This document shows, one piece after another, positions 8,457 through 21,302 of a DNA stretch of 64,000 nucleotides. Each line of letters starts with the position of its first letter. Position 1 is the first letter of the stretch. Source of the DNA: Fictibacillus terranigra (lineage in GTDB: Bacteria > Bacillota > Bacilli > Bacillales > Fictibacillaceae); contig NZ_JAUHLN010000001.1 of NCBI RefSeq assembly GCF_030412265.1, forward strand, positions 248,001 through 312,000, given 5' to 3'. Under the pieces are notes generated by a model, which worked only from the letters and a program-made list of their open reading frames with translations, was not told the origin of the DNA and did no database searches. A program made the translations under genes and the position numbers.

Positions 8457-9431
8457 ATGAAAATTAAAAAAACGATAGAGCGTGTTCCCGGCGGAATGAT
8501 GTTAGTTCCTTTGTTGATCGGGGCGCTGATTAAAACTTTTTTTCCAGATTTGTTTGAACTGCCAGAGTTTAAAAGCTCTTTTACCGGCGGGCTTTTAACA
8601 GGTACGTCCGCTTTATTGGCGGCATTCTATGTTTGTCTCGGATCAACCATCAGATTTGAAGCAACCGGGTATATCTTAAAAAAAGGCGTTTCCTTATGGG
8701 TTGGTAAAATTGGGACAGCACTTATTGTTGCCCTTCTCATAAAAGCCATCGCTCCAGATCAAAACCATCTATTCCTAGGATTATCCGCACTGGCCATTGT
8801 AGCCGCTTTTTCCGATACAAACGGCGGATTATATATGGCGCTGATGGGGCAGTTAGGCAAACGGAATGAAGACGTTGCCGCTTATTCCATTATGTCGTTG
8901 GAATCAGGTCCGTTTTTCACCATGCTCATTCTTGGTGTAGCAGGTCTTGCAAGTTTTCCTTTATTGGCCTTTGTATTTGCGATTCTGCCTTTGATCCTGG
9001 GTATGATTCTCGGTAACCTTGATGAAGACATGAGAGCATTCTTGAGTAAGGCTTCTGACGTAATCATCCCATTGTTTGCACTAGCTCTTGGAGCGGGAAT
9101 TGATTTGACCAAAGTGGTGCAGGCAGGAGCTTCAGGAATCATTCTTGGTCTTGGTGTTGTCGTGATTACTGGAATTGTACTATTCCTGGCCGACCGGTTT
9201 ACAGGGGGAGATGGTGTGGCTGGTGTAGCAGCTGCGTCTACAGCAGGTAACGCTTCTGCGGTTCCTTTGGCGGTTGCTGCGGTGTATACAGGGTACAAGG
9301 AAATAGCTGCGGTCGCGACCCTTCAAGTGACAGCAGCGGTTGTCGTAACTGCAATTTTGACACCGATCTTAACCGCATGGCTGGCAAAACGAACAAAGAA
9401 AACGGCAACAGATGTGAATCTTACACACTAA
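8457..9431 (+). CDS. KdgT-type 2-keto-3-deoxygluconate permease family protein
   Basis: A 324-residue, roughly 10-helix membrane protein of the KdgT family (IERVPGGMMLVPLLIGALIKTFFP at the start; GNASAVPLAVAA and SDTNGGLY as family-like polar breaks in helices). Known members import 2-keto-3-deoxygluconate by proton symport. In this operon the likely cargo is a four-carbon acid sugar such as threonate or erythronate, by context only. SD GGCGGGG is near the ATG. First gene of an operon with the kinase (30 nt on) and dehydrogenase, under a promoter with a cre site and two palindromes. Confidence 0.85.
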   Translation: MKIKKTIERVPGGMMLVPLLIGALIKTFFPDLFELPEFKSSFTGGLLTGTSALLAAFYVCLGSTIRFEATGYILKKGVSLWVGKIGTALIVALLIKAIAPDQNHLFLGLSALAIVAAFSDTNGGLYMALMGQLGKRNEDVAAYSIMSLESGPFFTMLILGVAGLASFPLLAFVFAILPLILGMILGNLDEDMRAFLSKASDVIIPLFALALGAGIDLTKVVQAGASGIILGLGVVVITGIVLFLADRFTGGDGVAGVAAASTAGNASAVPLAVAAVYTGYKEIAAVATLQVTAAVVVTAILTPILTAWLAKRTKKTATDVNLTH

Positions 9432-9461
9432 ACGGTTTTAATTTAAAGGAGTTTTTCTTCA

Positions 9462-10760
9462 ATGCAATTATTTATACTGGCAGATGACCTGACAGGAGCC
9501 AATGACTCAGGCGTACAACTATCGAAGCAGGGATTCCGATCGACCGTATGGCTGGAAAACAACAAAAAGCCGGATGGTGAGACGGATGTAGCCATTTATG
9601 ATACTGACAGCAGGGCTTTAACCGAAGAAGAAGCGTATCATCGTGTTTATGAGGCTTCATTGCATGTGAAGAACCTGCATGACGTCCATGTGTATAAGAA
9701 AATGGACTCCACCCTCCGTGGAAATATAGGTGCCGAACTGGCCGCTGTGTGTGACGCGGTTCAACCAGAAATTGTTGTCATTTCGGCAGCCTACCCCAAA
9801 TTGGAGAGGCAAACGATCAATGGATGCCAATATGTTCGCGGCAGACTTGTTGAGCAGACGGAGTTTGGACAAGATCCAAAAACGCCCGTTACAGAAAGCA
9901 GCATCCCGGCGCTATTGAGGAAGTACGCCGGACATAAAATCGGCACAATCGACAGCGGATTGCTGTCCCGTTCAATGAAAGAAGTTTTAGCATACGTGCT
10001 TGATGAGATGGATGAAGGGAAAACGTGGTTTGTTTGTGATGCAGAGAAGGAAGAGCATCTGGAAAAAGCAGCTCAAATTTTTGCCTCTCTCCATAAAAAA
10101 CTTTTATGGGCGGGATCAGCAGGTCTCATCGAGTACTTGCCGGCTGCCCTGAAGCTTGAAGTGCCAAAGCGAGAGAAAAAGGCAAAGGCAGAGATAAGCC
10201 GAACCCTTACTGTGTCAGCCAGCTTATCCATGACGACGAAAGTTCAGCTGGAAAAGGTGAGTACAATGCCGGATTCCTTCATGATTGAAATGCAGCCAGC
10301 AGATTTAATGAAAAAGACCTATGATCTGCAAAATCTGATTCAAAGCATAAAACAGGTCCCGGGTATGCGCCATTTCGTCCTCTATGTGGATGGTTCACAT
10401 GAAAACCGGGAAGCTGCCCGGATGCTTGGCGGTGAATTAGGCCTGCTTAAGAATCAGATCGGTGAAAGGATATCAAGGGAACTTGGAATCATAGCCCGGT
10501 CTGTGCTTGACCGGTTTCCTGATATCTCAGGGTTGGTGCTTACTGGTGGAGACACCGCAAAGGCAGTATGTTTAGAAGCCGGAATGACACAAATGGAACT
10601 GTGGTCTGAGCTGGAGCCGGGTCTTCCCCTGGGGATCCTAAGCGATAAAAAACGCATGTTTATGGCGGTAACTAAGGCCGGGGGATTCGGCAATGAAGAT
10701 TCTTTAGTCCATGCGTTGAACCATATGACAGGAGAGGTGTTACAACATGAATCAAAATAA
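9462..10760 (+). CDS. Four-carbon acid sugar kinase (DUF1537 family), cassette 1
   Basis: A 432-residue two-domain kinase. The N-terminal substrate domain opens with LADDLTGANDSGVQLSKQG (D8, D9 and D15 are the usual acid-sugar ligands) and contains KKMDSTLRGNIG; the C-terminal nucleotide domain has GLVLTGGDTAKAV. DUF1537 kinases phosphorylate D-threonate, L-threonate or D-erythronate at C4. The product would be oxidised by the next gene's PdxA2-type enzyme. SD AAAGGAG precedes ATG at 9462. The 3' end overlaps that gene by 14 nt. Which of the four-carbon acids is used cannot be read from sequence. Confidence 0.85.
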   Translation: MQLFILADDLTGANDSGVQLSKQGFRSTVWLENNKKPDGETDVAIYDTDSRALTEEEAYHRVYEASLHVKNLHDVHVYKKMDSTLRGNIGAELAAVCDAVQPEIVVISAAYPKLERQTINGCQYVRGRLVEQTEFGQDPKTPVTESSIPALLRKYAGHKIGTIDSGLLSRSMKEVLAYVLDEMDEGKTWFVCDAEKEEHLEKAAQIFASLHKKLLWAGSAGLIEYLPAALKLEVPKREKKAKAEISRTLTVSASLSMTTKVQLEKVSTMPDSFMIEMQPADLMKKTYDLQNLIQSIKQVPGMRHFVLYVDGSHENREAARMLGGELGLLKNQIGERISRELGIIARSVLDRFPDISGLVLTGGDTAKAVCLEAGMTQMELWSELEPGLPLGILSDKKRMFMAVTKAGGFGNEDSLVHALNHMTGEVLQHESK

Positions 10761-11751
10761 AAGTATCATCGGTATCACAATGGGAGATGCAGCAGGTGTA
10801 GGTCCTGAAATCATCTTAAAAAGTCTCGCGAACCGGGAAATATATGATCTATGCCGCCCTTTCGTAATCGGCGACAGCAAAATTTTGGAGCGGGCTAAAG
10901 GCTTCGTGGACAGCGGCCTTGCGATTCAAAATATTACAGAAGAGGAGATTGATCGTCTTAACTTCGAGTATGGTACGGTTTACACTCTGAATTTGGATCT
11001 GCTGCCTGCGGATCTCCCGGTCGGACAGGTCTCTTCCCTTGCAGGACATGCCGCTTTTGAATATTTAAGCAAGGCGATCGACCTTGCGAATAAAGGTAAG
11101 ATCGATGCGATATGCACAGCCCCATTGAACAAGGAGGCACTGCACAAAGGAGGCCATAAGTATCCGGGACACACTGAAATATTGGCCGAGTTGACAGGCA
11201 CCAAAGAGTTTTCGATGATGCTTTCCGCTCCGAATTTAAAAGTAATCCATGTCACGACCCATGTCGGCATCATAGACGCTGTAAAAATGATTAACCCTGA
11301 ACGGGTCTACCGAGTGATTAAATTAGCGCATGAAACGCTGAAAAAATCAGGGATTGAATCTCCGAAGATTGCGGTCTGCGGTATTAATCCTCATGCCGGA
11401 GAAAACGGACTGTTCGGATATGGCGAAGAAGAAGAGAAAGTCATTCCTGGAGTGAAAAAAGCACTGGAAGAAGGCGTTAATGCAGTAGGGCCGCTTCCTG
11501 CCGATACCCTGTTTTTCCGCACGGTCCGCGGGGATTTTGACATTGTCGTTGCCATGTACCATGATCAGGGCCACGGACCCGTCAAAGTCCTTGGACTGGA
11601 TGCAGGAGTAAACATCACCGTCGGGCTGCCGATCATACGGACGAGCGTAGATCACGGAACGGCATTCGATATTGCCGGCAAAGGGCTGGCCGATGAAAAA
11701 AGTATGACCGAAGCGCTCCGTCAGGCGGTGGAGCTGGCGCCAAAACGATAA
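10747..11751 (+). CDS. PdxA2-type 4-phospho-threonate/erythronate dehydrogenase, cassette 1
   Basis: A 334-residue NAD-dependent PdxA-family enzyme with ITMGDAAGVGPEI at the start, conserved His in PGHTEIL, and MYHDQGHGPVK near the metal site. PdxA proper serves DXP-dependent vitamin B6 synthesis, which Bacillaceae generally lack, and the DUF1537 partner points to PdxA2: oxidative decarboxylation of 4-phospho-D-threonate (or erythronate) to dihydroxyacetone phosphate. SD GGAGAGGTG lies inside the kinase gene, giving translational coupling. A terminator follows immediately. Confidence 0.85.
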   Translation: MNQNKSIIGITMGDAAGVGPEIILKSLANREIYDLCRPFVIGDSKILERAKGFVDSGLAIQNITEEEIDRLNFEYGTVYTLNLDLLPADLPVGQVSSLAGHAAFEYLSKAIDLANKGKIDAICTAPLNKEALHKGGHKYPGHTEILAELTGTKEFSMMLSAPNLKVIHVTTHVGIIDAVKMINPERVYRVIKLAHETLKKSGIESPKIAVCGINPHAGENGLFGYGEEEEKVIPGVKKALEEGVNAVGPLPADTLFFRTVRGDFDIVVAMYHDQGHGPVKVLGLDAGVNITVGLPIIRTSVDHGTAFDIAGKGLADEKSMTEALRQAVELAPKR

Positions 11752-11786
11752 AGAGAGAAGGGCTTATTCCCTTTTCTCTTTTTTTA
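11751..11786 (+). terminator. Terminator of acid-sugar cassette 1
   Basis: Stem AGAGAGAAGGG / CCCTTTTCTCT with a short loop and a run of seven T, starting at the stop codon of the pdxA2-like gene. Confidence 0.85.
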
Positions 11787-12062
11787 GTGCAAAAAACCCA
11801 ATTCCTTTCTCATTGATTCGAAAGAATCCTCCGGTCCTCCCGCTACTTTTTCCTCATTTTGGGAAATCGAGTAACTATATATTGAATTTTCAGACTTTAA
11901 TTTTTAAAATGAATAAGAAAGTTAGGAACCTTTACTAACCAACCCTGCAATGATCCTCGAGCCACTCACCCAGATCCTTTCCATTTCATATCTCAACATT
12001 ATTTTTAATCTGAAAAGCAGAAGTCACCTGTCATGGTCAAACTTTAATGAAGGAGACAAATG

Positions 12063-13271
12063 ATGAAATTTATACACAAGGGCGGTACCGCGTTTATTAA
12101 AGAAAAGAACAAACGGAACATCCTCCATTGTATAAAAGGAGATGGACCGCTCTCGCGTACTGAAATTGCTGAGAGGCTGCAGCTCTCCAAGCCTACTGTA
12201 TCGGCAATCGTGGAAGAATTGCTTAATGAAAAATGGATTAAAGAGAGCGGTATAGGTGTTTCAAAGAGCTTAGGCGGTAGAAAACCCATTCAGCTTGTAT
12301 TTAACTGCCGGGCTGCTTACGTGATCGGTGTGGATATTGGTGGGACAAAAGTAAGGATAGGGATCAGTGATCTTGATGGAAACTTGCTAGACGTTGATGA
12401 GTTTTCAACACAAAACCATATTCACTCGAGTTTTTTACACGCGATTAAAGAGCGGGTGGAAATGCTTTTAGAAAAACAAGGTATGATGAACGGAGAAATC
12501 CTTGGAATGGGGATCGGTGCTCCAGGAATGACTGATGTGGATCGAGGAATTGTTATTGACGCGCCAAGTCTCGGCTGGTCGAATTATCCTTTGAAAAAAG
12601 AAGCGGAAGCGCTGTTTCCATGGCCCGTGCTGGTTGATAACGATGTGAACGTCGCGGCGATCGGTGAACAATGGCTCGGGGCAGCAAAAGGGTTGAGCAA
12701 TGTCGTCCTGATCGCCATCGGAACAGGAGTGGGCTGCGGCATCATCATCAACGGGCAGCTTTACCGGGGCGCAACATGGGCGGCAGGTGAGATCGGCTAT
12801 ATGGTCACCGATGCAGCAAAAGCGAAGGGAGCAAATCTGTCTACTCCGCATGAGGGCTATGGCTTTTTAGAGCGGTTTACAGGAGGCCCAGGTATTGTCC
12901 AGAGCATGCAGCATGAACTGAAAGGGAGACCGGCTGATCATTCATTTCCACGAGATTTTACAGCCAGGGATGTTTTTCAGAAAGCCAGGCAAGGCGACCC
13001 TGATGCATTGCAAGTGATAAACGAGGTAATTGATCATATTGGCTTTGCAGTAGCTAACGTGATTTCAATTATAAATCCTGAAATTGTCCTTTTAGGAGGT
13101 GGCATTTCAAAGAGTGCGGATTGGTTTATGCCAAGGATTCAGAACATCATCCAAGATTTTGCATCGGTATCGGCCCCTGTTAAAACAACGGCGTTTGGAG
13201 AAGATCTGGGGGTTGTCGGTGCCGTATCTCTTGTGCTCCGGGAAACGGAAAGTGTTTTAAAAGAGATGTGA
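12063..13271 (+). CDS. ROK-family transcriptional regulator (NagC/XylR type)
   Basis: A 402-residue protein. Residues 1-75 are a winged helix (LSRTEIAERLQLSKPTVSAIVEELL); the rest is a ROK sugar-binding domain with VIGVDIGGTKVRIGISDLDGN and IGTGVGCGIIING. The zinc-binding CxCGxxGC motif of NagC-like repressors is absent. SD GAAGGAG fits the second of two adjacent ATG codons (12063) better than the first (12060). It is the first gene of the PIG-L/ABC/lyase operon, 15 nt upstream of the PIG-L gene, so it probably senses a sugar-containing ligand for that operon. A GTTAG...CTAAC inverted repeat at 11921-11939 is a weak operator candidate. Confidence 0.85.
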   Translation: MKFIHKGGTAFIKEKNKRNILHCIKGDGPLSRTEIAERLQLSKPTVSAIVEELLNEKWIKESGIGVSKSLGGRKPIQLVFNCRAAYVIGVDIGGTKVRIGISDLDGNLLDVDEFSTQNHIHSSFLHAIKERVEMLLEKQGMMNGEILGMGIGAPGMTDVDRGIVIDAPSLGWSNYPLKKEAEALFPWPVLVDNDVNVAAIGEQWLGAAKGLSNVVLIAIGTGVGCGIIINGQLYRGATWAAGEIGYMVTDAAKAKGANLSTPHEGYGFLERFTGGPGIVQSMQHELKGRPADHSFPRDFTARDVFQKARQGDPDALQVINEVIDHIGFAVANVISIINPEIVLLGGGISKSADWFMPRIQNIIQDFASVSAPVKTTAFGEDLGVVGAVSLVLRETESVLKEM

Positions 13272-13286
13272 AAAGGAGATGGGTTC

Positions 13287-15794
13287 ATGAAACGTATCAT
13301 TGCCATTGTCATGTCTGTCCTGATGACGTCCGTATTGATGGTTCCCGCCAATGCCCGGGGAGAATCAGCCGAGGAAAAACCAAAAGACCTCTGGAGTGCG
13401 GTAAAGCCGCTCGATACGATCGTCAGTTTTTTGAATACAGGTGCTCACCCGGATGATGAGCGAAGTGATCTGCTCGCTTACCTGTCACGTGGAAAAGGAG
13501 TCCGGACCGCGAGCCTGATTGCCAATCGGGGAGAAGGAGGGCAGAACGAAATCGGAAACGAGCTCGGGGATGCTCTCGGCATTATCCGTACAAGGGAGCT
13601 GATCGAGGCTTCAAAGGTGACTGGTGTAAAGGTCTATCACCTCAGCCGTAAGCCGAGCGATGAGATTTATGATTTCGGATTTTCAAAATCCAAAGAAGAA
13701 ACGCTCTCCAAATGGGGAGAGCAGACAGCTTATGAGCGGGTCATCCGATTGATTCGTACATACCGCCCGGACATCATCATGCCTTCGTTCCTTGACGTTG
13801 ATACAGAGCATGGGCATCACCGCACGATGAACTACTTGACACTCAAAGCTTATAAGGATGCGGCGGATCCAAAAGTGTTCCCCGGTCAGATCAAGGAAGG
13901 ACTGAAACCTTGGGGGATCAAAAAGCTTTACCTGCCTTCTGATGAAAAAGGTGCGACGACTTCTTTCCAAATCGGAATGATGGATGATGTTTACGGTAAA
14001 ACGTATCCGCAAATCGGCGAAGAATCACGCTTTCTCCATAAGAGCCAGGGGATGGGCCGTGACATTCCTGCGCAGCCAAGAATGATTCATCTCAAGCTGG
14101 AAAACTCCAGACTGGGAGCCCCGGGTACGGAACAGTCCCTTTTTGATCATCTGCCTTACGATTTAAAGGAGTATGCCGGTACAGTAAAAGACAAAGGGGT
14201 TAAAAAGAAGCTGAAGGATCTCCAATCCGACTACGACGATCTGGTGGAGCTGTACCCCGACCGAAAAGCAATTGCAGAGGATGTTTATCCTGCGATCAAG
14301 CATACCCGACAGCTCGAAGAACGTGTGAAGCGCAGTTCGCTCTCAAGGGAAGCGAAAGATGATCTCCTCTTCCGCCTGGATATTAAGGAAAGCCAGCTGA
14401 TGAATTTGGCGGCTGAAGCTTCTCAGGTGACCGTCAAAACCGTGATTGACCATCCTGTTCTTGTACAGGGAGGCTCTGCAAAAGTAAAAGTAACGGTAAA
14501 AAATAACGGAAAACAGATCCTTCGATCGGTAAAAGCCGCCCTTCATCTTCCAAAAACATGGAAGGTTTCGGAGCATCTGCATCGAGCGGAGTTAAAACCA
14601 GGTGAGGCAAAAACATTTGCTTTCAGTATAAAAGCAGCTAAGAATGCCTCTTACTATCAGCCTTATGAACCGTCTGTGATCACTTCAAGTGTCACCTACA
14701 AGGTGCATGGTACAAAAGCGGAAAAAAGTGTGGAACTCGAACAAACAGCAGCTGTTTTGCCTGACGTTTCGGTGAAAAGTGATCCTGAAAGCCTGGTTGT
14801 TAACACTGCCGATTTAAAAAAATCCATTCAAGTAAAAGTGGAAGCGAAAAACCACACAGCCGGAAAGGAACAGGCAGTCCTGCATTTAAAGGTTCCTGAT
14901 GGCTGGAAAGTGGCCAATGACGGCCAAAAGGTTTCTTTCAATAAGCATGGCGAGGTCAAGACGGCCGTGTTTACCGTCCAATTGCCGGCTCAGGTGAAGG
15001 AAGGAAGCTATCGCCTTAAGCCAGATGCGACGGTCAATGGCAAAACACTGGGCACGTCCGTCCAAAATATTTCTTATCCGCATATCGGCAACTTCTATTA
15101 CTTGTATGATGCAGGAACAAAAGCTGCTGCTTTTCCTCTTCAGTTCGACAAGTCAAAAAGGATTGGATATGTAGAGAGCGGGTTTGATAATGTGTCATCC
15201 CAGCTCAGAGCTGTGGGCATGAATGTTGTCTCATTGGATAAGGGGCAATTAGAAGCTATGGATCTCTCCCAGTTCGATACGATTGTGATCGGCATCCGTG
15301 CCTACCTTTCCCGGGAGGACCTGCTGAAGAATAACAGCAGGCTGCTGGATTTCGTGAAAAATGGGGGTCATCTCGTTGTCCAATACCATAAGCCTGAAGA
15401 CAAATGGGATGCAGAAAAAACCGCTCCATATAAACTCGTGATCGGCAGCCCGTCCATAAGGTGGAGGGTGACGGATGAAAATGCAAAGGTAACGATGCTG
15501 AAGCCTGCACATCCACTGTTCAACACGCCAAACAAGATCACGGATAAAGATTGGCAGGGCTGGATTCAAGAACGGGGCCTCTATTATCCAAGCGAGTGGT
15601 CTGATCAGTTCGAGACATTTGTAAGCATGGCGGATCCGAATGAGGCACCGTTTAATGGAGGCATTTTAATGGCGAACTATGGAAAAGGCAGCTATTTATA
15701 TACCAATCTTGTATGGTACCGTCAAATTCAAAACAATGTCCCAGGCGGTTACCGGTTGTTCACCAACCTGATCGATTATTCAAGAGAGCAGTAA
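13287..15794 (+). CDS. Secreted multidomain PIG-L (LmbE-like) deacetylase
   Basis: An 835-residue exported protein: signal peptide at residues 1-24 (MKRIIAIVMSVLMTSVLMVP, cleavage after ANA), PIG-L catalytic domain about 45-260 with the zinc motif GAHPDDERSD and HGHHRTMNY, two Ig-like/NEW3-like beta domains about 390-600, and a C-terminal domain resembling a class-I glutamine amidotransferase fold (GIRAYL...GGHLVVQYHKP). PIG-L enzymes remove N-acetyl from GlcNAc-type conjugates (GlcNAc-PI, GlcNAc-malate, mycothiol precursor). The product would be handed to the ABC importer encoded next. SD AAAAGGAG precedes the ATG. Much longer than cytosolic BshB-type enzymes. Confidence 0.85.
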   Translation: MKRIIAIVMSVLMTSVLMVPANARGESAEEKPKDLWSAVKPLDTIVSFLNTGAHPDDERSDLLAYLSRGKGVRTASLIANRGEGGQNEIGNELGDALGIIRTRELIEASKVTGVKVYHLSRKPSDEIYDFGFSKSKEETLSKWGEQTAYERVIRLIRTYRPDIIMPSFLDVDTEHGHHRTMNYLTLKAYKDAADPKVFPGQIKEGLKPWGIKKLYLPSDEKGATTSFQIGMMDDVYGKTYPQIGEESRFLHKSQGMGRDIPAQPRMIHLKLENSRLGAPGTEQSLFDHLPYDLKEYAGTVKDKGVKKKLKDLQSDYDDLVELYPDRKAIAEDVYPAIKHTRQLEERVKRSSLSREAKDDLLFRLDIKESQLMNLAAEASQVTVKTVIDHPVLVQGGSAKVKVTVKNNGKQILRSVKAALHLPKTWKVSEHLHRAELKPGEAKTFAFSIKAAKNASYYQPYEPSVITSSVTYKVHGTKAEKSVELEQTAAVLPDVSVKSDPESLVVNTADLKKSIQVKVEAKNHTAGKEQAVLHLKVPDGWKVANDGQKVSFNKHGEVKTAVFTVQLPAQVKEGSYRLKPDATVNGKTLGTSVQNISYPHIGNFYYLYDAGTKAAAFPLQFDKSKRIGYVESGFDNVSSQLRAVGMNVVSLDKGQLEAMDLSQFDTIVIGIRAYLSREDLLKNNSRLLDFVKNGGHLVVQYHKPEDKWDAEKTAPYKLVIGSPSIRWRVTDENAKVTMLKPAHPLFNTPNKITDKDWQGWIQERGLYYPSEWSDQFETFVSMADPNEAPFNGGILMANYGKGSYLYTNLVWYRQIQNNVPGGYRLFTNLIDYSREQ

Positions 15795-15862
15795 ATCAAC
15801 TGTGGATAGGAGGGATTCATTCTCTCCTGTTCACTCTAATTTTACGATGGGGAGTGATTTTC

Positions 15863-16951
15863 ATGGGCGGGAAAAAAGTGATGGCCTGTGCAGCGGGTGC
15901 TGCCGTTAGCCTTTCCCTTCTTTTAAGCGGCTGTATGGCAGCGGACCAAACGGAAAAAGCAAGCGGAGGGAAAGTGAGCAAGAATCTGGAAGAAAAGGTG
16001 GTCATCTATTCACCTCATGGCAAGGATATCCTCCAGGAATTTGAACAAAAATTTGAGAAAGAAAACCCGAATGTTGATGTGGAATGGCTTGATATCGGTT
16101 CACAGGAAGTATTGGACCGAGTGCGTTCAGAGAAGAAAAATCCTCAGGCCGACGTCTGGTGGGGTGCTCCTTCCGTAATGTTTAACCAGGCAAAAGGAGA
16201 AGCGCTTCTCGAGCCATACAAACCAACGTATGCGAAGGCGCTAAAAGACGAATTCCATGATAAGGACTGGGCATGGAGCGGAACGAGCCAAACTCCAGAA
16301 GTTATTATGTATAACAATAAAAAGCTCAGCAAGAAGGAAGCTCCAAAGGACTGGGATGAGCTTCTTGATCCGAAATGGAAAGACAAGGTGGTCATCCGCT
16401 ACCCTTTGGCATCCGGTACGATGAGAACGATCTTCTCTGCCATGATCTACCGCGACTATAAGGATTCAAAGGATACAAAACCAGGATATGAATGGCTGGA
16501 GAAGCTGGATGCCAACACGAAGGAGTATTCGGCGAATCCGGAAATCATGTACAGCAAGATAGCAAAGGGTGAAGGCACCGTTTCGGTATGGGCCATGCCT
16601 GATGTTGTCATGCTTAAAGAAGAAAAAAACTACCCGTTTGACTTTGTGATCCCAGAGAGCGGCACGCCTGTCCTGACCGAAGGGATCGCGCTCGTCAAAA
16701 ATGCGAAGCATCCTAAAGCGGCGAAAGCTTTTTATGAGTTTGTGAACTCCAAGGAAGCGAACAAAACTCTGGCAGAAAAGCATTACCGCATTCCAACACG
16801 AACAGATATCGACGAACTGCCGAAATGGATTGAGGAGACCAAAATTAAGCCGATGGACATTGACTGGAAGGTTTTTGAGCAAAAATCCAATGAGTGGATG
16901 GAATACTGGGACAACAACATTAAGAGCAAGGAAAAAGAGCAAAAAGAATAA
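15863..16951 (+). CDS. ABC transporter solute-binding lipoprotein, iron(III)/AfuA-like
   Basis: A 362-residue lipoprotein with a lipobox (LSLLLSGC, Cys about 24). The fold signature is that of class-1 extracellular binding proteins of the iron/thiamine/phosphonate group (VVIYSPHGKDILQEFEQKFEKENP, ADVWWGAPSVMFNQAK, TEGIALVKNAKHPKAAKAFYEFVNS). I do not see a clear adjacent Tyr-Tyr iron ligand pair, so an organic or chelated ligand is possible. The start at 15863 follows GGGGAGTG; upstream in-frame codons overlap the PIG-L gene. It lies 68 nt after PIG-L and 26 nt before the ATPase. Confidence 0.85.
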   Translation: MGGKKVMACAAGAAVSLSLLLSGCMAADQTEKASGGKVSKNLEEKVVIYSPHGKDILQEFEQKFEKENPNVDVEWLDIGSQEVLDRVRSEKKNPQADVWWGAPSVMFNQAKGEALLEPYKPTYAKALKDEFHDKDWAWSGTSQTPEVIMYNNKKLSKKEAPKDWDELLDPKWKDKVVIRYPLASGTMRTIFSAMIYRDYKDSKDTKPGYEWLEKLDANTKEYSANPEIMYSKIAKGEGTVSVWAMPDVVMLKEEKNYPFDFVIPESGTPVLTEGIALVKNAKHPKAAKAFYEFVNSKEANKTLAEKHYRIPTRTDIDELPKWIEETKIKPMDIDWKVFEQKSNEWMEYWDNNIKSKEKEQKE

Positions 16952-16977
16952 GGCAGGCAGAAGAGAGGGAGCAGTAA

Positions 16978-18093
16978 ATGTCATCTGTATTGCTCGAGAA
17001 TATAACCAAATCGTTTAAAGATTATCAAGCCGTTAAGGAGCTGAATCTAGAAGTCAAAAAGGGGGAGTTCTTTACGTTTCTCGGTCCGAGCGGCTGCGGA
17101 AAAACAACTACCCTCCGAATGATAGCAGGATTCTATTACCCTACGACCGGGAGAGTGCTGTTCGGAGACCGTGATATGACAAGAGTAGTGCCCGAAAAAC
17201 GCAATACAGGCATGGTGTTTCAAAACTATGCTCTGTTTCCTCACATGACGGTATTTGAGAACGTTGCATTTGGCCTTAAGGTGCGCAGGCTCGGATCAGC
17301 CGAGATCAAGAAAAAGGTAGAGCAGTCACTTAAAAAGGTCAGGCTTGAAGCATTTATAGGCCGGCAGGTGAGCCAGCTCAGCGGGGGGCAGCAGCAGCGG
17401 GTGGCGCTTGCCCGCTCCCTTGTGATCGAACCGGAAATCCTGCTGCTGGATGAACCGCTGAGTAATCTTGATGCACGCCTTAGGGATGAGATGAGGACAG
17501 AAATCCTTCGTTTACAGCGGGATTATGGAATCACCACCATCTATGTGACCCATGACCAGGTTGAGGCGTTATCCATGAGTGACCGGATCGCTGTTTTTAA
17601 CTTTGGGGAGTGTCAGCAAGTAGGAACACCTAAGGAGATTTATAATGAACCAGCCAATGATTTTGTGGCTGCCTTTATTGGAGAAACCAACCTGATTCCG
17701 GTCATTTGGGATGGAAAGGGGGGGGAAACCCTTCAGTTTTCCTGGGAGGAAAACAAGAATAAAAAGGTGGTGGCCGAGACTCTTTTCTCTTCTTATGAGC
17801 GAGATCATCATCTGTCTGTTTCCATTCGTCCGGAAGCGGTTGAAGTGTTTGATGAAGAGCCTCTTAACCTGCAAAATGTATATGAAGGAAACGTGGAGCT
17901 GGCTCAATTTACCGGGGCATCTGTTAATCTTTTTATCTCGTTAGGTGAAAAAACCGTTCAGGCCCTTATTCTGAATAACCAGACACGACGTGAGCCTCAG
18001 CCGGGGGATAAAGTGTGGGTGCGTTTTCCGGAATCCCATGTGAGAGTGATTCCGCGCGTCATGAATCAACCGGCAAGGAGTATGAGCACATGA
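16978..18093 (+). CDS. ABC transporter ATP-binding protein (PotA/FbpC type)
   Basis: A 371-residue ATPase: Walker A GPSGCGKTT (about 39-47), Q-loop in VFQNYALFPHMTV, signature LSGGQQQRVALARSL, Walker B ILLLDEPLSNLDARLRDEMR, switch His in VTHDQVEALSMSDR, and a C-terminal TOBE domain. It energises import by the fused permease encoded downstream. SD GAGGGAG precedes the ATG. The stop overlaps the permease start by 4 nt (ATGA). Confidence 0.93.
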   Translation: MSSVLLENITKSFKDYQAVKELNLEVKKGEFFTFLGPSGCGKTTTLRMIAGFYYPTTGRVLFGDRDMTRVVPEKRNTGMVFQNYALFPHMTVFENVAFGLKVRRLGSAEIKKKVEQSLKKVRLEAFIGRQVSQLSGGQQQRVALARSLVIEPEILLLDEPLSNLDARLRDEMRTEILRLQRDYGITTIYVTHDQVEALSMSDRIAVFNFGECQQVGTPKEIYNEPANDFVAAFIGETNLIPVIWDGKGGETLQFSWEENKNKKVVAETLFSSYERDHHLSVSIRPEAVEVFDEEPLNLQNVYEGNVELAQFTGASVNLFISLGEKTVQALILNNQTRREPQPGDKVWVRFPESHVRVIPRVMNQPARSMST

Positions 18094-19775
18094 AAAACCG
18101 TGACCGGCGTTTTACACTCCTCCTGCTGATTCCGGTTATCCTCGTCCTGGTGGCCTATGTCCTTTATCCATCTCTTCGCACACTGATCGAGAGTTTCCAT
18201 CACAAAGGGGGATGGAACCTTAAAAACTATGAAACCTTCTTTGGTACAGAAAGCCGGTCCAACCTGCGGGCACTGTGGAACTCCGTCTATATTTCACTTT
18301 TAAGTGTACTGTTCTCGGCACTGATCGGCGTGCCGCTGGCCTTCATCTTCAATAAGTATGAATTTCCGGGGAGAAGCTTCTTTTCCAGTGCCGCGATTCT
18401 GCCGATTGTCCTTCCGTCCCTTGTCGGAGTGATGGCGTTTATGTTCCTTTATGGTGAGTCCGGCCTGGTGCCAAATGCAATAAAAGACCTGCTCGGGCTG
18501 AAACATGTTCCGTTTAAGATCGGCGGGGTTTCGGGCATCCTCATTGTTCATGCCTACACGATGTATGTGTACTTCTATATGACAGTCTCCAGCACCATCC
18601 GCAGCATTGATCCATCCCTTGAGGAAGCGGCCTATAACCTTGGAGCGGGAAGGTTTACCGTATTTAGAAAAGTAACGCTTCCCCTTTTAACGCCTGCCAT
18701 TGTCGGTGCATCTCTTTTGGTATTCATGACCTCCATGGCTTCCTTTAGCGCACCTTTCCTGCTGGCGGGTGGGTTCAGGGTGCTGAGTCTGCAAATCTAC
18801 TTTTCTAAAGTAAACGGCAACCTGCAGATGGCGGCTGCACAATCTGTTATTTTATCCGTCGTTTCGATATCCTTTCTCCTGTTTATGAGGTGGTATCAGA
18901 ACCGGCGAGATTACAGAATGGCTACGAAAGGAATCGGAGCCCATCGAAGTGAGATTAAGAATCCTTTTTTGAAAGGGTCGATGGTGATCCTGGGGGTTTT
19001 AGGCGTAATCATCCTCCTGCTTCCCCATGCAACAATCCTTATTCTGTCCCTTGTTCCTGATGGGACATGGACGTATCAGACGTATCCATCCGTTTTTAAT
19101 ATTGAGAATTATTTATTTCTGTTTACCGAGCCAAAAATCTGGGATCCTGTACGGAATAGTTTAATTCTGGCGTTCCTTGCGACGCTTGGAAATCTCGTGT
19201 TCGGTGTGCTGACCTCGTATGTTCTCGTGAAACGAAAATTTTATGGCAAGAATATGCTGGATATCATGGTGATGCTCCCTTGGGCGCTTCCCGCCACTGT
19301 AGTGGGGATGAATCTGATTTTGGCATTTAACGAACCATCTCCCTTTACGTTTGGCAACATCCTGGTCGGTACGTTTTGGATTTTGCCGCTGGCATATTTT
19401 ATCCGCCATATTCCACTTGTCGTGCGTTCAACGAATGCTTCGCTTGAGCAGCTGGATGACTCGCTTGAGGAAGCGGCGAGAAACCTTGGTGCAGGGTGGT
19501 TCTACTTATTTCGAAGGGTCGTGCTTCCACTGGTCATGCCTGGAATAATGGCCGGTACACTGCTTGCTTTTGTGGAGGCGGTTGGGGAATTTCCAACCTC
19601 GGTCCTGTTGTACACCTTAAGCAACCGTCCGATCTCCATTGAAATCATGAACCAGCTCCGAATGTTTAATATGGGGCAGGCAGCCGCGTATGGAATGATT
19701 CAGATCAGCTTAATCGGTCTTGTGCTGTTCATATCCAATAAGTTTTTTGGCATTAAAGCAGAGCGCTCTCTCTAA
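18090..19775 (+). CDS. Fused two-domain ABC permease, iron(III) type
   Basis: A 561-residue membrane protein made of two tandem BPD_transp_1 units, each with an EAA loop (EEAAYNLGAGRFTVFRKVTLP and EEAARNLGAGWFYLFRRVVLP). A single polypeptide therefore supplies both halves of the channel, as in FbpB-type iron and some thiamine or phosphonate importers. The start at 18090 overlaps the ATPase stop and has SD AAGGAG. About 12 membrane segments are visible. It is 18 nt upstream of the lyase gene. Confidence 0.9.
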   Translation: MKNRDRRFTLLLLIPVILVLVAYVLYPSLRTLIESFHHKGGWNLKNYETFFGTESRSNLRALWNSVYISLLSVLFSALIGVPLAFIFNKYEFPGRSFFSSAAILPIVLPSLVGVMAFMFLYGESGLVPNAIKDLLGLKHVPFKIGGVSGILIVHAYTMYVYFYMTVSSTIRSIDPSLEEAAYNLGAGRFTVFRKVTLPLLTPAIVGASLLVFMTSMASFSAPFLLAGGFRVLSLQIYFSKVNGNLQMAAAQSVILSVVSISFLLFMRWYQNRRDYRMATKGIGAHRSEIKNPFLKGSMVILGVLGVIILLLPHATILILSLVPDGTWTYQTYPSVFNIENYLFLFTEPKIWDPVRNSLILAFLATLGNLVFGVLTSYVLVKRKFYGKNMLDIMVMLPWALPATVVGMNLILAFNEPSPFTFGNILVGTFWILPLAYFIRHIPLVVRSTNASLEQLDDSLEEAARNLGAGWFYLFRRVVLPLVMPGIMAGTLLAFVEAVGEFPTSVLLYTLSNRPISIEIMNQLRMFNMGQAAAYGMIQISLIGLVLFISNKFFGIKAERSL

Positions 19776-19793
19776 AAACAAGGAGGCGAAGAC

Positions 19794-21302
19794 GTGAAAA
19801 CAAAAGATGAATTTATCCGCGATGAAGGAGTGTCGTTCCCCGGCAAAACATATGAAGAACATCTTCTGAGGCATGTGTTCAACGATCAGCGGGACTATCT
19901 GTTTAAAGAGATGTTCGCGATTCACCGGGCACATGTGGTGATGCTTGCAGAACAGGATATCCTTGGGAAAGAAGAAGCGGGGGCCATTCTTGCCGGCGTT
20001 GAGAAGGTGAGGAAGATCGATTACCGGCAGCTGAATTATGACCCGCTCTTTGAAGATTTGTTTTTTATGATGGAAAGCCGGCTCGCAGACGAAATAGGGG
20101 CAGATCTAGCCGGTAAGGTCCATATTGCGCGGAGCCGAAACGACATGGGGGTAGCGATGTACCGGCTGGTCTTGCGAAGGCATATACTTACACTCATCCA
20201 ACATGCGCTCCTGCTCGGCGGGTCGCTTCTGGAGCAGGCGAAGGACCATGCTGAGACGGTCATGACCGCTTATACCCACACTCAGCCCGCCCAGCCAACA
20301 ACGCTTGGCCATTATCTGCTTGCGATCTATGATGTCGTCAATAGAGACGTTCGCCGGCTCTGGTCTGCCTATGAAGGTGTCAACCGGTCACCGCTTGGAG
20401 CAGCCGCGCTTGCCACGACAAGCTTTCCGATCAGCAGAGACCGCGTACGAGACCTTTTAGGGTTTGGAGGTATTGTAGAAAACTCCTATGATGCCATCGC
20501 TGGCGGGGACTATCTCCTGGAAACAGCGAGCGCTGTCATGACGCTCATGATCAATTCTGGCCGCTGGATTCAGGATCTGCTCCTTCAAGCCACACGGGAA
20601 TTTGGAGTGATCCGCGTGGCCGATCCATACGTGCAGATCTCAAGCATCATGCCGCAAAAACGGAATCCGGTGTCGATCGAGCATTCGCGCTCACTCGCCA
20701 GTTCAGCAGCCGGTGAAGCACTGGCGGCCATTCAGATGATCCATAACACCCCGTTCGGTGACATCGTGGATACCGAAGATGACCTGCAGCCTCATCTGTA
20801 CCGCAGCTATGAGAAAGCTTCACGTGTTCTGCAGCTCATGCATGCCGTCATCCGAACGATGGAAGTGGATGCGCAAAAGACATCAAAGCGTGCGAACCAA
20901 TCCTGCATCACGATTACAGAGCTTTCGGATGTGCTCGCCCGGGATAAAGGCGTGCCTTTCAGAAAAGCGCATCAGATTGCGAGCGCCGTTTCAAAAAAAT
21001 GTACATCCGCAGGGAAAGAATTGAACGAAATACCAGTCACAGAAGCGAACGAATGGATCAGCACGGTCTATCCTGCATCTTTAACGGAAGAAGAGTGGAG
21101 GGGCATCGTCTGTCCCCGCGAATTTGTCCATCGCCGAAAAATTCAGGGCGGCCCAAATCCGGAAGAAGTAAAGCGAATGATTTCGGAGCGTGAGGAAGAG
21201 CTTTTCATGATGGATCAAACACATCAAAACGAGAAAGAGCGCTTGCGGCAGGCGGACCAGTCACTGGATCGCGCAGTTCATCATTTCATCGCAGGCAAGT
21301 AA
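19794..21302 (+). CDS. Argininosuccinate-lyase-like enzyme of an importer operon
   Basis: A 502-residue member of the fumarase/aspartase superfamily, ArgH branch. Landmarks: KVHIARSRNDMGVAMYRL, YTHTQPAQPTTLGHYLL and the catalytic loop ISSIMPQKRNPVSIEH (about residues 282-297), where ArgH usually has MPQKKNPD. The family removes fumarate from N-substituted aspartates. No other arginine gene is nearby, and the gene is last in an importer operon, so a catabolic role on an imported N-succinyl or malyl-type compound is more likely than arginine synthesis. Relatives in this branch include EDDS lyase. GTG start with SD AGGAGG. The last about 40 residues are a charged extension. Confidence 0.82.
   Translation: MKTKDEFIRDEGVSFPGKTYEEHLLRHVFNDQRDYLFKEMFAIHRAHVVMLAEQDILGKEEAGAILAGVEKVRKIDYRQLNYDPLFEDLFFMMESRLADEIGADLAGKVHIARSRNDMGVAMYRLVLRRHILTLIQHALLLGGSLLEQAKDHAETVMTAYTHTQPAQPTTLGHYLLAIYDVVNRDVRRLWSAYEGVNRSPLGAAALATTSFPISRDRVRDLLGFGGIVENSYDAIAGGDYLLETASAVMTLMINSGRWIQDLLLQATREFGVIRVADPYVQISSIMPQKRNPVSIEHSRSLASSAAGEALAAIQMIHNTPFGDIVDTEDDLQPHLYRSYEKASRVLQLMHAVIRTMEVDAQKTSKRANQSCITITELSDVLARDKGVPFRKAHQIASAVSKKCTSAGKELNEIPVTEANEWISTVYPASLTEEEWRGIVCPREFVHRRKIQGGPNPEEVKRMISEREEELFMMDQTHQNEKERLRQADQSLDRAVHHFIAGK

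Follow-up and report, generated by a model that had tools for sequence, protein, structure and literature searches.

An operon of Fictibacillus terranigra with a ROK regulator and an ArgH-like lyase: a proposed route for scavenging glucosamine conjugates

Introduction

In the MurQ etherase pathway, a sugar carrying a hydroxy-acid ether is imported, the ether is eliminated, and the amino sugar is passed on to NagB. Here we propose a similar route for a six-gene operon of Fictibacillus terranigra (Bacillota; Fictibacillaceae), located in a 64,000-nucleotide stretch of contig NZ_JAUHLN010000001.1 (positions 248,001 to 312,000 of the forward strand; assembly GCF_030412265.1), hereafter referred to as the window. 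The operon encodes a ROK-family regulator, a large PIG-L enzyme, an ATP-binding cassette (ABC) importer with its solute-binding protein (SBP), and a lyase related to argininosuccinate lyase (ArgH). We consider it probable that this ROK-controlled operon scavenges a glucosamine conjugate, most likely the glucosaminyl-malate (GlcN-malate) core of bacillithiol (BSH), and we are considerably more confident that some amino-sugar conjugate is cut to fumarate. The resemblance to the MurQ pathway does not extend to the enzyme, since the window lyase is unrelated to MurQ, or to the substrate, which for MurQ bears a lactyl ether on C3 rather than a C4 acid.

Described systems also resemble individual components of the operon. 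According to a passage in PMC4101496, every LmbE/PIG-L enzyme known in 2014 has a substrate with N-acetyl- or N-acylglucosamine at its core. Part of PMC4360819 describes BSH as Cys-GlcN-malate, with GlcNAc-malate being deacetylated by BshB, and presents a BshB2 homologue that works as a BSH S-conjugate amidase. Like the bacillithiol enzymes BshB2/Bca and the mycothiol enzymes Mca/MshB of the LmbE family, the window enzyme belongs to the PIG-L N-deacylases with metal motifs, and BshB2 itself occurs in two related operons; unlike them, it is large, probably exported, and NEW3-bearing. The sugar-phosphate importer AfuABC and the pyridoxal 5'-phosphate (PLP) importer P5PA, which handle anionic organic ligands, belong to the same “iron-type” SBP family as the window importer, which differs in being partnered with a PIG-L enzyme and a lyase. 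ArgH (TIGR00838) has the same fold family as the window lyase, an SSxMPxKxN-type core, and fumarate as product. The nearest solved structure by sequence is the EDDS lyase of Chelativorans sp. BNC1 (6g3d), an ASL-superfamily enzyme that is not ArgH. Among the matches listed in a search of the open-access literature, which leaves subscription papers mostly outside, we found no account of bacillithiol degradation, of a GlcN-malate lyase, or of this gene set.

Results

Conservation of the gene set

A lyase scan with one genome per species found 91 relatives, of which 80 loci were kept; the closest named relatives are Fictibacillus. The ROK, SBP, ATPase, permease, and lyase genes are all present in 49 of the 80 loci and follow the order ROK-SBP-ATPase-permease-lyase in 48 of these, the lyase of the 49th (L099) being cut by a contig end, so that the clustering exceeds what chance would give. 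Conservation of gene order, on which an earlier sequence-only reading of the window had staked its proposed scavenging pathway, is thus found in 48 of 80 loci. An unbroken large PIG-L gene accompanies 48 loci; in 41 of them it diverges from ROK, and in seven it occupies the second place of the operon, which is the window arrangement. The PIG-L gene of L075 is split. Across 60 close genomes, PIG-L was detected in 11, all of which carry the lyase. The rest of the 80 loci are mostly lyases without these partner genes.

Two close relatives, L033 (8853-11509) and L162 (7998-10652), place PdxA directly before a lyase that is still 87-88% identical; the ROK, PIG-L, and ABC genes are not there, and no PIG-L was found anywhere in the host genomes (G002 and G006). 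The record of locus L062 is titled Chryseobacterium sp. ISL-80 and contains a Bacillaceae-type arrangement, which suggests that the record is probably misnamed or contaminated.

The lyase belongs to a clade distinct from ArgH

A separate ArgH-type gene of the genome lies on this contig at a distance of 0.95 Mb, and its product is 32% identical to the window lyase. In an IQ-TREE phylogeny of 76 rows, the window lyase falls within a 44-row clade (support 100/99) that contains no ArgH row, the genome's own ArgH and the other ArgH rows lying outside. When 13 plasmid rows were included and L149, L179, and L180 omitted for their long branches, the resulting 86-row tree recovered the clade with 54 rows and the same support, again without ArgH; in the first tree, L149 lay inside the clade and L179 and L180 outside. 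Clade members come from Bacillota, Alphaproteobacteria, and Deinococcota. EDDS lyase, which is the best match among solved structures and is named argininosuccinate lyase there, lies outside the clade in both trees, on branches of 2.39 and 2.25 whose length makes its placement unsure. Its identity as EDDS lyase was established via 6G3H, as described in part of PMC12363623.

The sequence-only reading had considered an anabolic ArgH unlikely, and its proposal would have fallen with a sole copy grouping with housekeeping ArgH; the genome has a separate ArgH-type gene and the lyase lies in a distinct clade, and a catabolic rather than anabolic lyase is supported. An arginine role for the window lyase is rejected on the basis of the tree and the separate gene. 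The reading had also reported no arginine gene nearby, which agrees with our inspection: none was noticed among the neighbors viewed in the window and in the eleven plasmid cassettes that carry annotation, an inspection that was not systematic.

For the active site, the 44 clade rows were set against 25 rows of ArgH. The fumarate-side residues S114, R115, N116, T161, H162, S283, S284, K289, and N291 are kept in every clade row, indicating that the lyase retains the fumarate-binding core, while its leaving-group region is altered. The ArgH stretch YNKDxQEDK (each named position in 24 or 25 of the 25 ArgH rows), which we take to be the part that grips the arginine moiety of the substrate, corresponds to D-I-V-D-T-E-D-D-L in the window lyase. 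Specifically, the ArgH-invariant Y323, Q328, and K331 are replaced in the clade by D (44/44), E (36/44), and L (33/44), with I324 in 38 and V325 in 32 rows. An acidic side chain at position 323 would be compatible with a free amino sugar. Six residues, Q281, R290, H297, N318, D323, and Q332, are each present in all 44 clade rows and were used as a signature. According to part of PMC12363623, D290 and Y320 of EDDS lyase are among six residues within 4-6 Å of the substrate; the aligned clade residues are V (42/44) and I (38/44).

Outside the clade, a further ArgH-like family was observed in L155, L157, L131, L132, and L241, of which L155, L157, and L241 read AKHNH at the signature; by eye, the lyases of L157 and L241 adjoin a GntR-like regulator and a TAXI/TRAP-like transporter.

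Amino-sugar genes beside clade lyases

Lyase loci with flanks were pooled from the species scan (80) and from further searches (20 and 39), giving 139 loci. The Bacilli part of the last 39 covers 32 of the 72 lyase-bearing genomes, picked outside the best-sampled family; lyase-bearing Bacilli were rows of at least 560 bits, the next lyase-like rows reaching at most 467. With five of the six signature residues needed, 131 loci are members, L099 is truncated, and seven are non-members. Neighbors were counted within 8 kb of the lyase in 132 clade loci (the 131 members and L099), using markers that came from the window and from five of the counted loci, which match by construction. An Fe-type ABC system is found in 75 loci, a CUT1 sugar ABC system in 21 (that of L238 counted on hits of 27-31%), and one or the other in 95. 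ROK is present in 79, the large PIG-L in 74, a BadF kinase in 26, and PfkB in 18. Twenty ArgH-type loci from clade-carrying genomes, one of them cut by a contig end, served as controls and gave 0/20 for each neighbor marker, the sole match being the generic ABC-ATPase marker (14/20).

NagB exceeds the TIGR00502 cut-off of 236.9 bits in L143 (306.7), L150 (283.6), and L219 (263.6), the last being a window-type operon organized as ROK-SBP-ATPase-permease-lyase-NagB, with SBP 70%, permease 78%, and lyase 63% identical to their window counterparts. Similarly, BshB2 exceeds the TIGR04000 cut-off of 195.25 bits in L098 (271.7) and L229 (295.3), which have the common order lyase-BadF-DUF1806-BshB2 beside a CUT1 ABC system, ROK, and an amidohydrolase; DUF1806 was assigned by Pfam in L098 and by tblastn in L229. 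Because another, higher-scoring BshB2 exists elsewhere in the L098 genome, the copy in the operon looks dedicated. For eight BadF proteins scanned, the best model was NagK NF046058, with scores of 81-109 bits that lie far under its cut-off (370), and “NagK-like” therefore denotes family resemblance. The host genome's own NagB lies outside the window; no NagA was noticed in these operons, although no search was aimed at it.

Other neighbors were recorded as side observations. A creatininase-family protein adjoins the lyase in L145, L146, L161, L210, and L242, together with PIG-L in L210 and L242. In L144 (5626-7809), an amidohydrolase and a serine-dehydratase-alpha-like protein, a possible cysteine desulfidase, lie between the CUT1 ABC genes and the lyase. 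An amino-acid ABC system near some members was considered as a cystine importer and not used, since it is cystine-like in L100 (below cut-off) and glutamine-like in L089.

The PIG-L enzyme and the importer

Window proteins were scored with Pfam and NCBIfam models. The PIG-L metal motifs (HPDDE and HGHH) are found in 48/48 relatives and a hydrophobic N-terminus in 47/48; the window enzyme is probably exported.

FbpA-type ferric importers bind iron at a site of tandem tyrosines. In a crude test for such a site, YY after residue 100 was absent in 43/49 SBPs. The “iron-type” label of the sequence-only reading is a family name only: the best sequence match of the window SBP among solved SBPs is the PLP-binding protein 6wce. 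The second-best, 4r72, we take to be the sugar-phosphate binder AfuA, and many ferric binders follow.

The ROK regulator and its operator

The CxCGxxGCxE zinc motif is missing from the ROK protein in 49/49 relatives, and the window protein is probably a repressor. The pattern TTAGNNAANNTNNCTAACNAA, allowing at most two mismatches and derived from the same promoter regions in which it was counted, occurs in 48/49 of these regions (before ROK or between PIG-L and ROK; 48 loci and the window), 46 of which have at least two positions of the pattern. Most divergent loci have one site 5' of PIG-L and one 5' of ROK. The only region without it is that of L036, where a split ROK gene led to the wrong stretch being taken. 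The pattern occurs in 0/49 SBP upstream regions, and shuffled controls gave 11/980. The window site is one mismatch from TTAGNNAANNTNNCTAACNAA; within the window by itself, the pattern was found 4 times against 5.5 expected, not above chance, so the weight of the operator rests on its conservation.

With sites in the ROK/PIG-L promoter regions and none before SBP, ROK most likely controls PIG-L along with the importer and the lyase. The conserved operator-like site beside the ROK gene supports ROK control of the operon, the earlier reading having noted that ROK proteins sense sugars. A wider regulon was considered and rejected: a genome scan gave 44 sites against 124 for a reversed control pattern, and we therefore make no claim beyond the operon.

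Relatives beyond Bacillota and the bacillithiol profile

A plasmid search returned 200 records with any lyase match, of which 13 were opened. All six signature residues are present in 11/11 loci, eight from Alphaproteobacteria and three from Deinococcus; the other two, a haloarchaeal match and a plasmid-borne ArgH adjacent to argininosuccinate synthase, do not have the signature. Judged by annotation, each of the eight alphaproteobacterial loci contains a ROK regulator, a CUT1 ABC system, an “argininosuccinate lyase,” and a kinase, either for sugars or of the ROK family. A PIG-L of 776-801 residues is encoded in six of them, and a NagB-type deaminase in three: L270 (250.9 bits, over cut-off), L279 (by annotation), and L272, a NagB-II-like SIS protein (313 against a cut-off of 430). 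In two of the three Deinococcus loci there is also a kinase and a small PIG-L that resembles MshB but scores below its cut-off; the third has the lyase and CUT1 only.

In a test of 28 genomes, BshA and BshC were both over cut-off in 15 and both missing in the remaining 13; 11 of the latter carry a clade lyase, the lyases of G068 and G337 lying outside the clade. Among 398 Bacilli, BshC was found in 333 and a clade lyase in 72, of which 70 have BshC (the exceptions being G469 and G500). Importer genes adjoin the lyase in all 13 BshC-less clade carriers (11 and these two); one, L154, shows only the SBP before a contig end and is counted among the loci without an ABC system. Nine other such loci with a BshC result (L033, L101, L160, L162, L216-L218, L233, and L235) all have BshC. 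This profile is compatible with non-makers scavenging the compound and makers turning it over, a weak indication because BshC is common in Bacilli and kinship among the genomes was not corrected for.

Operon layout and upstream genes

The layout reported earlier, six genes on the + strand separated by 15, 68, 26, -4, and 18 nt, matches the open reading frame (ORF) list after the start codons were checked (Table 1). The ROK gene opens with ATGATG at 12060, the previously reported start at 12063 being the second ATG. The SBP frame is open from 15713, with an ATG at 15863 and the lipobox 3' of it; the permease starts with ATG at 18090 and the lyase with GTG at 19794. By Pfam, the gene products correspond to ROK with winged helix-turn-helix (HTH), PIG-L with NEW3, SBP_bac_8/6, ABC with TOBE_2, one permease with BPD_transp_1 twice, and Lyase_1 with ASL_C2. 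Promoter-type sites number 16 in the region against 12.3 expected, so that the match before ROK is weak by itself. The PIG-L/SBP intergenic region (15795-15862) folds at -23.7 kcal/mol (z -3.3), and its hairpin could perhaps make PIG-L and SBP levels unequal.

Upstream, positions 8457-11751 contain a KdgT-like permease, a DtnK-type four-carbon acid kinase, and a PdxA2-like gene, a D-threonate-type catabolic cluster. A functional tie to the operon was rejected because, among the 80 loci, the DtnK-PdxA pair adjoins the operon in no more than three loci, all from Fictibacillus (L035-L037), and a lone lyase in L033, and because a terminator-like hairpin (11750-11781) lies in between.

Table 1. Coordinates of operon genes and regulatory features in the window
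Feature	Coordinates	Strand	Basis or remark
Sigma-70-like promoter, TTGAAT-17-TAAAAT	11882..11910	+	5' of ROK gene; consensus match 9/12
Candidate ROK operator TTAGGAACCTTTACTAACCAA, imperfect palindrome	11922..11942	+	Directly 3' of promoter
ROK-family regulator, winged HTH and ROK domain	12060..13271	+	ORF, Pfam
Large PIG-L/LmbE N-deacylase, two NEW3 domains	13287..15794	+	ORF, Pfam; intact metal motifs (HPDDE, HGHH)
Attenuator/terminator-like hairpin in the PIG-L/SBP intergenic region	15802..15834	+	Folding
Lipoprotein SBP, Fe3+/2-aminoethylphosphonate/sugar-phosphate/PLP-type	15863..16951	+	ORF, Pfam, NCBIfam
ABC ATPase with TOBE_2, PotA/PhnT2-like	16978..18093	+	ORF, Pfam, NCBIfam
Fused ABC permease with BPD_transp_1 twice, layout as in PhnU2	18090..19775	+	ORF, Pfam, NCBIfam
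ASL-superfamily lyase, proposed GlcN-malate lyase	19794..21302	+	Signature Q281 R290 H297 N318 D323 Q332

Discussion

The gene content and its conservation across phyla, the operator, the lyase clade with its altered leaving-group region, and the amino-sugar partners of some relatives are computed results, and together they suggest the following route. Outside the cell, an exported zinc-type PIG-L would strip the N-acyl group, which would be acetyl in the case of GlcNAc-malate and cysteinyl in the case of BSH or its S-conjugates. The GlcN-malate would be brought in by the ABC transporter, and the ArgH-like lyase would eliminate the sugar from malyl C2 through fumarase-superfamily chemistry, yielding glucosamine, and fumarate for the tricarboxylic acid (TCA) cycle. 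The glucosamine would then be phosphorylated, in relatives by NagK-like BadF, PfkB, or ROK kinases, before deamination by NagB. Release of the ROK repressor from its operator may be triggered by the sugar or by the conjugate. The trimming, import, and cleavage to fumarate of an N-acyl conjugate, as first suggested from the sequence, is supported as a proposal.

From these features we infer the substrate, the direction, the bond broken, the export, and the inducer. GlcN-malate is proposed because PIG-L enzymes act on N-acylglucosamine cores, NagB points to glucosamine-6-phosphate, and a lyase of this superfamily would release fumarate from a C4 acid; GlcN-malate is the known metabolite that joins glucosamine and such an acid. 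On balance, we lean towards the view that the clade annotated as argininosuccinate lyase in three phyla is a glucosaminyl-malate lyase clade breaking the C-O bond of this compound.

Several results weigh against this interpretation. The O-malyl glycoside requires a C-O elimination, and the nearest known kin, ArgH and EDDS lyase, break C-N bonds; the window lyase also passes the TIGR00838 argH cut-off (348.6 against 279.5 bits). The window PIG-L scores far below the curated models for Mca (32.7 against 277.15 bits) and MshB (23 against 224.35), and no BshB model matches it at E <= 0.001. Within 8 kb of the lyase, 37 of the 132 clade loci have neither ABC system, NagB (3/132) and BshB2 (2/132) are rare and the window operon has neither, and the amidohydrolase (9/132) and creatininase (7/132) are unexplained. 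Alphaproteobacteria, which are not known to produce BSH, carry the cassette, and the environmental substrate therefore need not be BSH.

This last point bears on an alternative with the same logic, in which another, hitherto undescribed glucosamine-C4-acid conjugate is deacylated, imported, and cut to glucosamine and fumarate, with bacillithiol not being the source. The PIG-L/kinase/NagB pattern in Alphaproteobacteria and the 13 clade carriers without BshC would suit it, yet BshB2-DUF1806 in two operons indicates a bacillithiol core, and BshC accompanies the lyase in nearly all Bacilli carriers (70/72, though it is common anyway, 333/398); we consider this alternative unlikely. A rather improbable substrate is N-(2-deoxyglucos-2-yl)-L-aspartate, a secondary amine of the Heyns type and the Maillard product of fructose and aspartate, whose C-N cleavage would also give glucosamine and fumarate. 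Its glucosamine would suit NagB and the kinases, and its cleavage is the chemistry of ArgH and EDDS lyase, but it offers no N-acyl group, which would leave PIG-L (74/132 loci) and BshB2 without a substrate.

Of the two substrates offered by the sequence-only reading, the GlcN-malate type is favored by NagB, the NagK-like kinase, and BshB2 in some relatives. The other, uptake and breakdown of an EDDS-like aminopolycarboxylate metal chelate, appears very improbable: despite EDDS lyase being the best solved match and the SBP family taking in Fe3+ binders, that enzyme lies outside the clade on a long branch, its substrate-site D290 and Y320 (partly described in PMC12363623) are mostly V and I in the clade, and the amino-sugar partner genes would be left unexplained. 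We likewise give very little credence to a lyase working in the synthetic direction to make a malyl or aspartyl sugar; the superfamily is reversible, as shown for EDDS lyase in part of PMC9486952, but the importer, deacylase, kinase, and NagB of the same operons form a catabolic set. An additional argininosuccinate lyase that serves to make arginine or to salvage argininosuccinate is almost certainly not encoded here: despite the TIGR00838 score and a best NCBI family also called argininosuccinate lyase (NF005218/PRK06705, 651.7 bits, below its cut-off of 883), the enzyme lies in its own clade beside a separate ArgH-type gene, has ArgH-invariant leaving-group residues replaced, and shows no arg gene among the neighbors viewed.

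Under the GlcN-malate interpretation, the operon supplies an immediately testable gene set with candidates for the enzyme, the importer, and the regulator. If the C-O elimination is true, a glycoside-type reaction would be added to the aspartase/fumarase superfamily, and the “argininosuccinate lyase” annotation would be corrected in three phyla, with the six-residue signature finding the true members. It would also mean, as we are slightly inclined to believe, that a catabolic pathway exists for bacillithiol and its conjugates, through which bacteria, including those that do not make BSH, may feed on a neighbor's redox thiol.

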